Below, in pieces: positions 34,786 to 38,472 of a DNA stretch of 64,000 nt; the stretch's first letter is position 1, and the number at the start of each line of letters is the position of its first letter. The notes beneath the pieces are model-generated. The model did no database searches. It was given only the letters and a program-made list of their open reading frames with translations, and was not told where the DNA came from. A program made the position numbers and the translations under genes. Source of the DNA: Henriciella barbarensis (GTDB lineage: Bacteria > Pseudomonadota > Alphaproteobacteria > Caulobacterales > Hyphomonadaceae); the NCBI RefSeq assembly GCF_003576345.1, contig NZ_QWGB01000005.1, forward strand, positions 868,001 to 932,000. The letters are read 5' to 3'.

Positions 34786-34814
34786 AACCCCGCAACGGAA
34801 GTTGCGGGGTTTTT
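34786..34814 (+). terminator. Terminator after rplS
   Basis: AACCCCGCAAC (34786-34796) and GTTGCGGGGTT (34801-34811) form an 11-bp perfect stem with GGAA loop, followed by TTT. It lies 27 bp after the rplS stop. Confidence 0.92.
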
Positions 34815-35099
34815 GTGTTCTGGCGGCAACACTTTTGGCTTATACCCCCATAACACTACGGCATATGGCTTGCAGAGTAGGTGACAAGCGGGCCGCGAAA
34901 GCCAAGTTTTCCCCATCTGGGACAGTGTTTTTCAAGGTCTTGCTCGCGTGCGAAGGGAATCTAGTTGGTTTCAAGATTACCGTTTCGTATACGAAATGAG
35001 CGACGTCAGTATTTATGGCGTATCAACAACGGTCCCGAGGGCTTCGGGCAACTTAATATCCTTTAGTTGGCCGGTGGGGTCAGAATTGGGGAAGGTCGA
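34815..35099 (+). other. Gene-free leader upstream of the repeat protein
   Basis: About 285 bp, more AT-rich than its surroundings, with no convincing reading frame. It carries the perfect palindrome at 34983-34996 and ends in GGGGAAGG before the repeat-protein start. It is presumably the promoter and 5' leader of that gene; no sigma70 boxes could be assigned with confidence. Confidence 0.5.
34983..34996. promoter_or_regulatory. 14-bp perfect palindrome, possible operator
   Basis: TTTCGTATACGAAA reads the same on both strands. It lies 104 bp upstream of the repeat-protein start in non-coding DNA. Perfect palindromes of this length are often dimeric regulator sites; the regulator is unknown. 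Confidence 0.4.
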
Positions 35100-36500
35100 A
35101 TGAAACTTAGCAAGAAACTTATGGTGGGTGTCGTTGCCTTGGCTGCACTCCCCCTCGCGGCCCACGCCGATGGCGAAGCGGGCACCTGGGAACATGAAGC
35201 AGTTGGAGAGCGTTTTTCTTCAGCTGGTTCCGCAACCGACGAACGCGTCCTTACAGATGCTCAAGTTCGTGAAATCATCCAGCAAAGCGGCACGTCCGGC
35301 GGCGCTGATGTTCGCTACCTTGGTGGTGAACAGCAGGCGATCGACAGCGTCCTGTGCTGTGAGAACGTCGAAGAGCGCGTAACCGAGAACACTGAGTTCG
35401 AGGAAACCACGACTTATTTTGACGCTGTAACCCGCCGCGAAATCGTCCAGCCGGTTGAGCGCACGCTCATCCAGCCGATCGAACGCCGCATCGTTCGTCC
35501 TCGCGTCGAAGAAGTGACTGAAGACACCGTATACGAGGAAGAGTATCTTCCAGTCCGTGTCGAGCAGGACGAAGTCCCTGCCGTTCAGGAGAACGTCACC
35601 ACGGATGTGACGGAAGAATATGTCGAGGAAGCGACCGAGACTTATTACGACGTCGTGACCCGCCGTGAGATCACCCAGCCGATCGAACGTACCACGATCG
35701 TTCCGGTCCAGCGCCGCATCACGCGTCCACGCACCGAGACAATCACCGCTGACACCCGTTACGAAACGGTCCGCGCACCGGTTCGTGTCGAGCAGGACGA
35801 AGTCCCGCAAGTCATCGAGAACGTGGTCCAGGATCTGACCGAGAACACCCGCGAAGAGTACACCGACACCTATGTCGATGCCGTCACCCGCCGCGATGTG
35901 TATCAGCCAGTCGTCCGCACGATGATCCAGCCGGTTGAGCGCCGTATCCTTCGCGGTACGACCGAAACCGTCACCGCTGCGACCCGCTACGAAGAAGAAC
36001 GTCTTCCGGTTCGTGTTGAAACCGAGCAGGCGCCTCAGATCACCGAGCAGATCATTCCGCAGGTTACCGAGCGTACCGTCCTCGAAGTTGAAGACGTCTA
36101 TGTCGATCAGGTTACCCGCAATGTGGTCCAGCCGGTTGTCGTAACGACGATCCAGCCAATCGAGCGCCGCGTGCTTCGTCCGCAGACCGAGACCATCGTC
36201 CGCGACACGATCTATCAGGAAGAGTACCTGCCAGGCCGCGTCGAAGCTGAGCCGATCCCGGAAACCCAGGTGAACTACATCCCGCAGGTCACCGAGGAAT
36301 ATCGCGAAGAGTACACCGAGTCCTACTTCGAAGCGGTCACCCAGCGTAACGTGATCCAGCCGGTCGAGCGTCGTATCGTCCAGCCGATCGAATACCGCCG
36401 CGTCCGCGGCCAGGTTGAGACCGTCGTCGCACCGACCCGTTATGAGACGCAGCGCGCTTCTCTGGTGGTCCTGAACGTCGGCCCAGGTTGCCCTTGCTAG
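35100..36500 (+). CDS. Secreted Val/Pro/Glu/Arg repeat protein with alveolin-like repeats
   Basis: A 466-residue protein with a clear signal peptide (cleavage near LAAHA/DG), so periplasmic or surface-located. From residue 105 to the end it is built of five tandem units of 76, 76, 76, 75 and about 58 residues, each starting with a Y-x-D-x-V-T-R-R-type motif (codons 105, 181, 257, 333, 408). Within each unit octads such as QPVERTLI-QPIERRIV-RPRVEEV recur, alternating Pro, Val/Ile and charged Glu/Arg. This composition resembles alveolin/articulin repeats of eukaryotic membrane skeletons. Its only Cys residues are C86-C87 before the repeats and C464, C466 at the very end. GGGGAAGG precedes the ATG at 35100. 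Function unknown; a structural envelope filament is my inference. Confidence 0.85.
   Translation: MKLSKKLMVGVVALAALPLAAHADGEAGTWEHEAVGERFSSAGSATDERVLTDAQVREIIQQSGTSGGADVRYLGGEQQAIDSVLCCENVEERVTENTEFEETTTYFDAVTRREIVQPVERTLIQPIERRIVRPRVEEVTEDTVYEEEYLPVRVEQDEVPAVQENVTTDVTEEYVEEATETYYDVVTRREITQPIERTTIVPVQRRITRPRTETITADTRYETVRAPVRVEQDEVPQVIENVVQDLTENTREEYTDTYVDAVTRRDVYQPVVRTMIQPVERRILRGTTETVTAATRYEEERLPVRVETEQAPQITEQIIPQVTERTVLEVEDVYVDQVTRNVVQPVVVTTIQPIERRVLRPQTETIVRDTIYQEEYLPGRVEAEPIPETQVNYIPQVTEEYREEYTESYFEAVTQRNVIQPVERRIVQPIEYRRVRGQVETVVAPTRYETQRASLVVLNVGPGCPC
35412..36497 (+). repeat. Coding tandem repeat, five units of about 228 bp
   Basis: Units begin at 35412, 35640, 35868, 36096 and 36321 (spacing 228, 228, 228, 225 bp); the fifth is cut short by the stop. 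Protein similarity between units is strong but DNA identity is only moderate, so the duplication is old and not a recent slippage product. Confidence 0.85.
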
Positions 36501-36526
36501 GACAAGCCTGAACCAGAATGACCCGG

Positions 36527-36560
36527 AAAGGGCCAGCTCGATGAGCTGGCCCTTTTCTTT
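36527..36560 (+). terminator. Terminator after the repeat-protein gene
   Basis: A 13-bp perfect stem (AAAGGGCCAGCTC at 36527-36539, GAGCTGGCCCTTT at 36543-36555) with a 3-nt loop, followed by TCTTTT. It lies 27 bp after the stop and isolates the gene from leuC. Confidence 0.92.
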
Positions 36561-38050: not shown

Positions 38051-38151
38051 AAACATTCGGCGTCGAAACGCTTTTTCTTGCGCTTGCCGCAGCGTCCACC
38101 TAATCCTCTTGGTTAATAGAGTACTAATAAGCTTAACACTTGGAGGAACTA

Positions 38152-38472
38152 ATGAAACGTACTGCACTCGCCCTTGCGGCCATCTCGATCTGCGCCGCGC
38201 CTGCCTTCGCCGCTTCAATCACGGTCAAATTCGACAGCGACAGCGGGAATGATCAGGAAGCCGTTTTCCATGATGACGGCACGCTTACCTCCGCTTCTGG
38301 CGATGGGACCTATACCTATGACGAAGACGCCTCGAAGATGTGTATCGAAAGCGACGCCTATAATGGTTGCATGACCTTCGCGGAGCCAGGCGATGAAGTC
38401 GGCCATTCGACGGCCTATACCGGCGACAATGGCGCAAGCGGCACCGCAACCATCATTGCGGCCGAAGAATAG
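38152..38472 (+). CDS. Small secreted protein of unknown function
   Basis: A 106-residue exported protein, signal peptide MKRTALALAAISICAAPAFA then a mature part of about 86 residues. The mature part is acidic, rich in Asp/Gly/Thr/Ser, and reads as a small beta-sandwich (TVKFDSDSGNDQEAVFHDDG, GDGTYTYDED). Two Cys (SKMCIESDAYNGCMTF) could form a disulfide. TGGAGGAA sits 3 nt before the ATG at 38152, stronger than the alternative at 38140. It interrupts the leucine cluster and resembles nothing I can name. Confidence 0.75.
   Translation: MKRTALALAAISICAAPAFAASITVKFDSDSGNDQEAVFHDDGTLTSASGDGTYTYDEDASKMCIESDAYNGCMTFAEPGDEVGHSTAYTGDNGASGTATIIAAEE

Follow-up and report, generated by a model that had tools for sequence, protein, structure and literature searches.

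The gene described here lies in a 64,000-nucleotide stretch of the Henriciella barbarensis genome (the window; contig NZ_QWGB01000005.1, positions 868,001 to 932,000) and codes for P0001, a protein made of a signal peptide, a leader and five tandem repeat units, with one pair of cysteines just before the repeats and another at the C-terminus (Table 1). An earlier note on this DNA, written from the sequence alone, had described it as a secreted protein of alveolin-like repeats that may form a periplasmic or surface scaffold. Our analyses suggest that this secreted protein of some marine bacteria is an unusual fibrous or ring-like envelope protein and not an alveolin. The observation behind the earlier note was right and its alveolin label wrong, and its scaffold idea is plausible.

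Protein searches returned 142, 144 and 136 matches (the best 120 of each listed), and the family set contains 133 distinct proteins including P0001. The signal peptide that had been placed ahead of the repeats is credible (MKLSKK, a hydrophobic run, then AHA), and a simple signal-peptide pattern is present in 130 of the 133 family proteins, a lipobox pattern in none. A loose motif for the VLT-helix stretch of the leader is matched in 93 of them. P0001 repeats far beyond chance: when residues 84–466 are compared with themselves, the score is highest at a lag of exactly 76 residues (a mean BLOSUM62 of 1.72), with further peaks at 151 and 152, and the best score at any lag from 5 to 199 in 300 shuffles was 0.15. 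All five tandem units, the last one shortened, are indeed there (76, 76, 76, 75 and 58 residues). The motif Y-x-D-x-V-T-R-R, said to open every unit, holds in part: Y-x-D-x-V occurs in four of the five units, but the fifth has YFEAV, and T-R-R is found in units 1–3 only. Similarly, the reported abundance of proline, valine/isoleucine, glutamate and arginine is marked, but threonine (14%), which had gone unmentioned, is equally so. Lysine is absent from the repeats, and the protein has a finer 8-residue period (proline 8.4, hydrophobic residues 4.2). Units in the same position of different proteins are more alike (58–68% mean identity, 77 aligned proteins) than units inside one protein (36–46%), so the unit duplications are older than the spread of the family.

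The repeats are enclosed by two invariant motifs, CC and CxC, with no other cysteine between them. From C87 to C464 the spacing is 377 residues in 125 of the 133 proteins, 378 in five, 301 in two and 366 in one. By this spacing 131 proteins have five units (one of them being 11 residues short), and the two with 301, one unit fewer, have four. Such a rigid length fits a register, which an insertion or deletion would break.

Table 1. Features of the P0001 gene and protein, with their positions in the window.
Feature	Position	Strand	Basis or remark
Terminator-like hairpin, intrinsic, after rplS	34786..34811	+	Consensus match; separates the gene from rplS
Shine-Dalgarno-like GGGGAAGG	35088..35095	+	Read from sequence; 4 bases 5' of ATG
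Whole gene, secreted repeat protein P0001	35100..36500	+	Open reading frame, 466 amino acids counted from ATG
Sec signal peptide, residues 1-23, AHA|DGE, without lipobox	35100..35168	+	Read from sequence
Leader, residues 24-85, with a VLT motif, a short helix (53-63, predicted) and the onset of the first long strand (70-85)	35169..35354	+	
CC (C86, C87), just before the repeats	35355..35360	+	Invariant, 133/133 family proteins
Repeat unit 1, residues 106-181 (76)	35415..35642	+	
Repeat unit 2, residues 182-257 (76)	35643..35870	+	
Repeat unit 3, residues 258-333 (76)	35871..36098	+	
Repeat unit 4, residues 334-408 (75)	36099..36323	+	One residue shorter
Repeat unit 5, shortened, residues 409-466 (58)	36324..36470	+	Coordinates cover 409-457
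C-terminal CxC (C464, C466)	36489..36497	+	Invariant, 133/133 family proteins
Putative turn 1, residues 86-212	35355..35735	+	From co-variation at 127
Putative turn 2, residues 213-338	35736..36113	+	From co-variation at 127
Putative turn 3, residues 339-466	36114..36497	+	From co-variation at 127 and 252
Terminator-like hairpin, intrinsic, 15 pairs	36525..36557	+	3' of the gene

Co-variation and the course of the chain

Co-variation between residues was measured in the 131 family proteins of five-unit length (effective number of sequences, Neff, 45–51) with background-corrected mutual information (MI) and mean-field direct coupling analysis (DCA). Among the 200 top MI pairs, 42 are separated by 127±3 residues, against 5.0 expected from the possible pairs and a mean of 7.1 (maximum 14) in 40 column shuffles. 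Another 12 stand at 252±3, for which the shuffles gave a mean of 1.7 and a maximum of 4. At eleven other multiples of a third of a unit (25–329), the highest counts were 10 at 76 (6.1 expected) and 7 at 177 (4.0 expected), and co-variation is hardly present at the 76-residue separation of the repeats themselves. The main DCA peaks are again 127 and 252, with 23 (5.0 expected) and 18 (2.5 expected) of the top 200 pairs, respectively, and these were the two leading DCA separations in six of six random halves of the set. Both peaks persist in three subclusters (129, 112 and 104 proteins) that are nested and do not count as independent tests. The MI pairs at 127 begin from residue 93 to 311, including 208, 213 and 214, with no evident break near 212, where turn 1 would pass into turn 2. 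In DCA, the strongest pairing of the leader strand (residues 68–86) is at +378, which places it over the C-terminal strand; the signal is weak. Physical contact is the likeliest cause of the co-variation at 127 and 252, because gene conversion between units would give multiples of 76 and shared ancestry by itself should favour no particular separation.

The cysteines yield a similar length. The centres of CC and CxC are 378.5 residues apart, which is 3 × 126.2, and 126.5 residues correspond to 1 2/3 of the 76-residue unit, or five thirds of 25.3 residues each, three such turns making ~379. The AlphaFold model of P0001 (79 sequences) contains four strands of 53–55 residues and a fifth that is broken (239–251, 264–292). 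Its predicted local distance difference test score (pLDDT) is 83–91 over much of the strands, with minima at 131–140, 251–270 and 381–400, ~125–130 residues apart. The earlier note had proposed such a model as a check between a filament and a globular enzyme; what is predicted is an all-beta protein with very long strands and no globular enzyme, but with a predicted template modelling score (pTM) of only 0.37. Fold searches in the PDB and a viral library found nothing at E 0.001 or better (best PDB match 0.21, best viral match 0.011), and no fold match to a solved beta-solenoid. As read from the signal peptide and the predicted strands, secretion and beta structure are well supported.

We favour, at close to an even chance, a Sec-secreted all-beta structural protein whose chain is wound about three times in parallel register, as a giant-rung beta-solenoid or hoop. 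Co-variation lends this winding moderate, though indirect, support. More tentatively, and with appreciably less confidence, we propose a specific form of it: a single chain making exactly three in-register turns of ~126 residues, clasped or joined into a tube by the cysteine pairs at its ends, with a ring size set by the number of units (five or four units giving five or four thirds per turn). As one turn is no whole number of units, each position along it would stack three different thirds of a unit. This would hold for proteins of five or four units and fail for three or six. In the four-unit relatives, if they too are three-turned, each turn would again be a whole number of thirds (302.5/3 = 100.8 = 4 × 25.2).

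For the shape of the turns, the disulfides, polymerisation, location and role, we can only infer a scenario. The mature protein would be exported and then wind into three stacked or intertwined turns. Being three turns apart, CC and CxC would meet at one seam, where disulfides could join the two ends, either in the oxidising periplasm or extracellularly. These bonds might form within one molecule, producing a clasped hoop, or link one molecule by its end to the beginning of its neighbour, producing a stacked tube or fibre. From the enrichment at 252, turn 1 may lie in contact with turn 3, and such a contact would argue for stacking or a rope of three strands rather than a flat ribbon standing by itself. 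With 0.33 nm per residue in an extended strand, each turn would comprise ~42 nm of strand and, if circular, measure up to ~13 nm across. The protein would probably serve the envelope as a mechanical or scaffold element, located outside the inner membrane. The scaffold idea of the earlier note holds up in outline: its alveolin basis was wrong, but this secreted protein, predicted to be all-beta with very long strands, would most likely serve as an extracytoplasmic scaffold.

Several observations weigh against the three-turn winding. The Neff is only 45–51, some separation reached z 6.6 in the 40 MI shuffles, and z 5.8 arose at 151 in one of the three DCA shuffles. The MI peak at 127 (z 16.5) is above the shuffle maxima, but the one at 252 (z 6.0) clears the shuffles only at its own position, so it convinces only as the double of 127. 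When the counts are set against the possible pairs, the enrichment at 252 equals or exceeds that at 127 in DCA, whereas in MI it is only about half as strong. DCA has lesser excesses at 302 (9 against 3.0 expected in the top 400) and, in one of the random halves, at 78. A simple comparison of hydrophobicity has no peak at either 127 or 252; charge complementarity is slight at both (-0.13 and -0.12, respectively) and stronger elsewhere. The MI signal between leader and end is best at +386, not +378. Moreover, co-variation is blind to the difference between contacts within a molecule and contacts between molecules. On the structural side, the low pTM of P0001 is joined by a poor AlphaFold model of a four-unit relative (pLDDT 57, pTM 0.26), and the shape of a turn may be that of a ring, of a flattened loop or of a serpentine layer.

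Alternative readings and known systems

A one-third-staggered fibre, in which extended chains lie side by side, each shifted by ~126 residues, and are joined head to tail via CC and CxC in a collagen-like stagger, would yield the same two separations between molecules and bring the cysteines together at the same point. The DCA enrichment at 252, at least equal to that at 127 per possible pairs, looks as if all thirds touched; in MI, however, it is lower at 252. In addition, the strands of the single-chain AlphaFold model already count as paired (DSSP strand), with the pLDDT of 83–91 over much of the length, and a fully extended secreted monomer would presumably be unprotected before assembly. 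We consider this fibre unlikely, though it is the most serious competitor.

In a functional amyloid of the FapC type, each molecule would contribute three cross-beta layers and layer 3 would stack on layer 1 of the next, an arrangement that suits the couplings at 252. The FapC monomer of Pseudomonas, as outlined in part of PMC12392863, has three imperfect repeats, each forming a single cross-beta layer, with co-variation among core residues and unlike layers stacked heterogeneously on one another, features it shares with the winding proposed for P0001. The two best PDB fold matches of P0001 are also FapC, though not significant (E 0.21 and 0.33; probability 0.03 and 0.01). By contrast with the short imperfect repeats of FapC, P0001 would have turns of ~126 residues; it also has no linkers, is poor in asparagine and has no significant fold match. 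An assembly of this kind seems to us rather improbable.

P0001 could also be an ordinary elongated surface protein, such as an adhesin or a ligand-binding rod, with some other, unrecognised cause behind its co-variation. It is secreted, repeated and lineage-specific, and has no conserved partner gene in the regions compared, all of which would suit such a protein. Adhesins usually vary in repeat number, whereas the distance between the cysteine pairs is nearly fixed here (377–378 in 130 of 133 proteins). No curated family in Pfam or NCBIfam, adhesin and S-layer families included, is over its cut-off for P0001, and the co-variation at 127 is far above the controls. We therefore deem this explanation quite improbable. 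The earlier note had allowed for repeats of a known unrelated family with a solved structure; no curated family or solved structure fits, and P0001 has no sequence match in the PDB.

Two further systems resemble the proposed three-turn winding. The triple-stranded beta-helix in the central spike of phage T4, gp5, has an octad period, close to the ~8.4 residues of P0001. Its three strands run in parallel round one axis, according to an excerpt of PMC4576200. They belong, however, to three chains, whereas in P0001 one chain would pass three times (or several chains would lie staggered), with octads marked by proline and no significant fold match. The beta-hoop sheath protein of Methanospirillum forms stacking beta rings with putative disulfides between them, at ~450 monomers per 400 nm ring (PMC10593813, in part). 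In P0001 a single chain would make three turns, and we liken the two by description only. If true, the three-turn winding would be a novel means of making a fibrous or ring-shaped envelope protein out of a single chain, in a single-gene system, with a turn out of step with the sequence repeat and both ends at one seam. Its geometry is the surprising part and has no match among the folds compared.

The alveolin-like kinship claimed for the repeats is not supported. A profile scan for IMCp (PF12314) found no match in P0001, with filters that drop most matches above E 0.1. IMCp gave no match at E 10 in its own genome, and for 42 family proteins it was absent among the matches listed (25 of 40 families). 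The controls do respond: the same genome search matched 4 of 14 genomes, those of Caulobacter vibrioides and of three archaea, and in one of them the match exceeded the cut-off. Within the order, an IMCp stretch occurs in 2 of 200 genomes, both of genus g18. The two g18 proteins score 23.6 bits, which passes the curated Pfam cut-off of 21.1, and 18.8 bits, which fails it. The one that passes carries four VPV and six VYV modules, as described for the articulin-like proteins reported from Caulobacter (PMC6212826, in part). Alveolins and articulins have a 12-residue repeat period in the section cited of PMC4303705; the autocorrelation of P0001 is -0.35 at 12 and +0.38 at 8, and in five further members lag 8 scores above lag 12 in all five and above zero in four. 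The composition given for epiplastins in part of PMC6212826 is V+I 33±7%, T 3±2%, A 1±1%, G 0.4±0.7% and charged residues 35±6%. P0001 lies outside these ranges for V+I (22.8), T (14.1) and A (3.5) and inside for G (0.8) and charged residues (32.8), and the mean over 124 family proteins is 23.3 for V+I and 15.0 for T. P0001 has 4.1 acid-base dyads in every 100 residues and the IMCp-positive g18 protein 15.2, and a profile comparison of these two proteins aligns only their signal peptides (probability 2.9%).

There are real likenesses. As in alveolins, articulins and epiplastins, the repeats of P0001 are rich in valine, glutamate and proline, poor in glycine, strongly charged and predicted to be beta. 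The strand and coil without helix that characterise the medial domain of epiplastins are predicted by AlphaFold for residues 70–466. Plateins carry endoplasmic reticulum signals (PMC4303705, in part), and the g18 proteins share with P0001 a signal-like start, with C-terminal parts rich in cysteine. Nevertheless, given the missing IMCp match, the 8/76 period, the abundant threonine, the lack of lysine, the few dyads and the near-fixed cysteine spacing, a bacterial IMCp-family homologue of alveolins or articulins is very improbable indeed. A secreted bacterial protein may have an alveolin-like composition without being kin to alveolins.

The IMCp-bearing g18 proteins (L032:988-2088, minus strand, and L033:1144-2202, plus strand) deserve mention in their own right. 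They have signal-like starts (LSAAPVLADG and LSAAPALADG, respectively) and C-terminal parts rich in cysteine and glycine, and look secreted. That is hard to square with the plaque beneath the membrane that part of PMC6212826 proposes for Caulobacter articulins.

Distribution and genomic surroundings

Among the genomes sampled, the gene is confined to its taxonomic family, where it occurs in 28 of 105 genomes and 4 of 10 genera. It was found in 19 of 299 sampled genomes of the order, all 19 belonging to this family, and the unit profile, run over 385 sampled genomes of the class, matched only in its own genome. There the gene is present once, and the unit profile found no paralogue at E 10. The family members with a named organism, among the matches listed, come from Henriciella, Hyphomonas, Ponticaulis or unclassified Pseudomonadota, and four named contigs with genes 92–100% identical are from Henriciella. 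A literature search of titles and abstracts found no work on this protein or family.

Some relatives show peculiarities. The four-unit proteins (L043 from genome G018, P0088 and P0104) contain pieces that roughly match units 1, 4, 2 and 5, in that order, and their breakpoints fall inside units, indicating rearrangement and not simple deletion. P0120 (504 amino acids), a divergent member, has a longer C-terminal tail after CxC, with further cysteines (CDCNC). The Pfam family AceK_regulatory (PF20423) scores 29.9 bits on residues 391–445 of P0103, over its cut-off of 25, and is matched at E 1 by 21 of 42 family members; for a beta-repeat family such as this, the annotation is very likely false. 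Databases attach the names DUF2382 and DUF2147 to P0005 and P0003; these were rejected, as neither matches at E 1 in those two proteins.

In the window, the gene is flanked by rplS and leuC (Pfam assignments) and stands alone between two terminator-like hairpins, and it looks monocistronic from this sequence context. The hairpins are consensus matches, of which three were found in the region on both strands against 1.7 expected. A search for a sigma-70-like promoter found none for the gene, and the only RNA family match within the window is a tRNA elsewhere in it. The leuC gene adjoins it in 17 of 17 same-genus genomes where both were located, and rplS lies on its other side in the window and in L043 and L046. 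Among five same-genus genomes lacking the gene, three have rplS and leuC near each other and two carry intervening genes. Beyond the genus, four regions from three other genera had none of the seven other window genes tested nearby. The two regions from one genus resemble each other, and the regions compared share no conserved partner gene. Gene context therefore does not point to a function. Further along the window, between leuC and leuD (38140-38472, plus strand), lies a gene with no Pfam match at E 0.001 that codes for a small secreted-looking protein (MKRTALALAAISICAAPAFA...).
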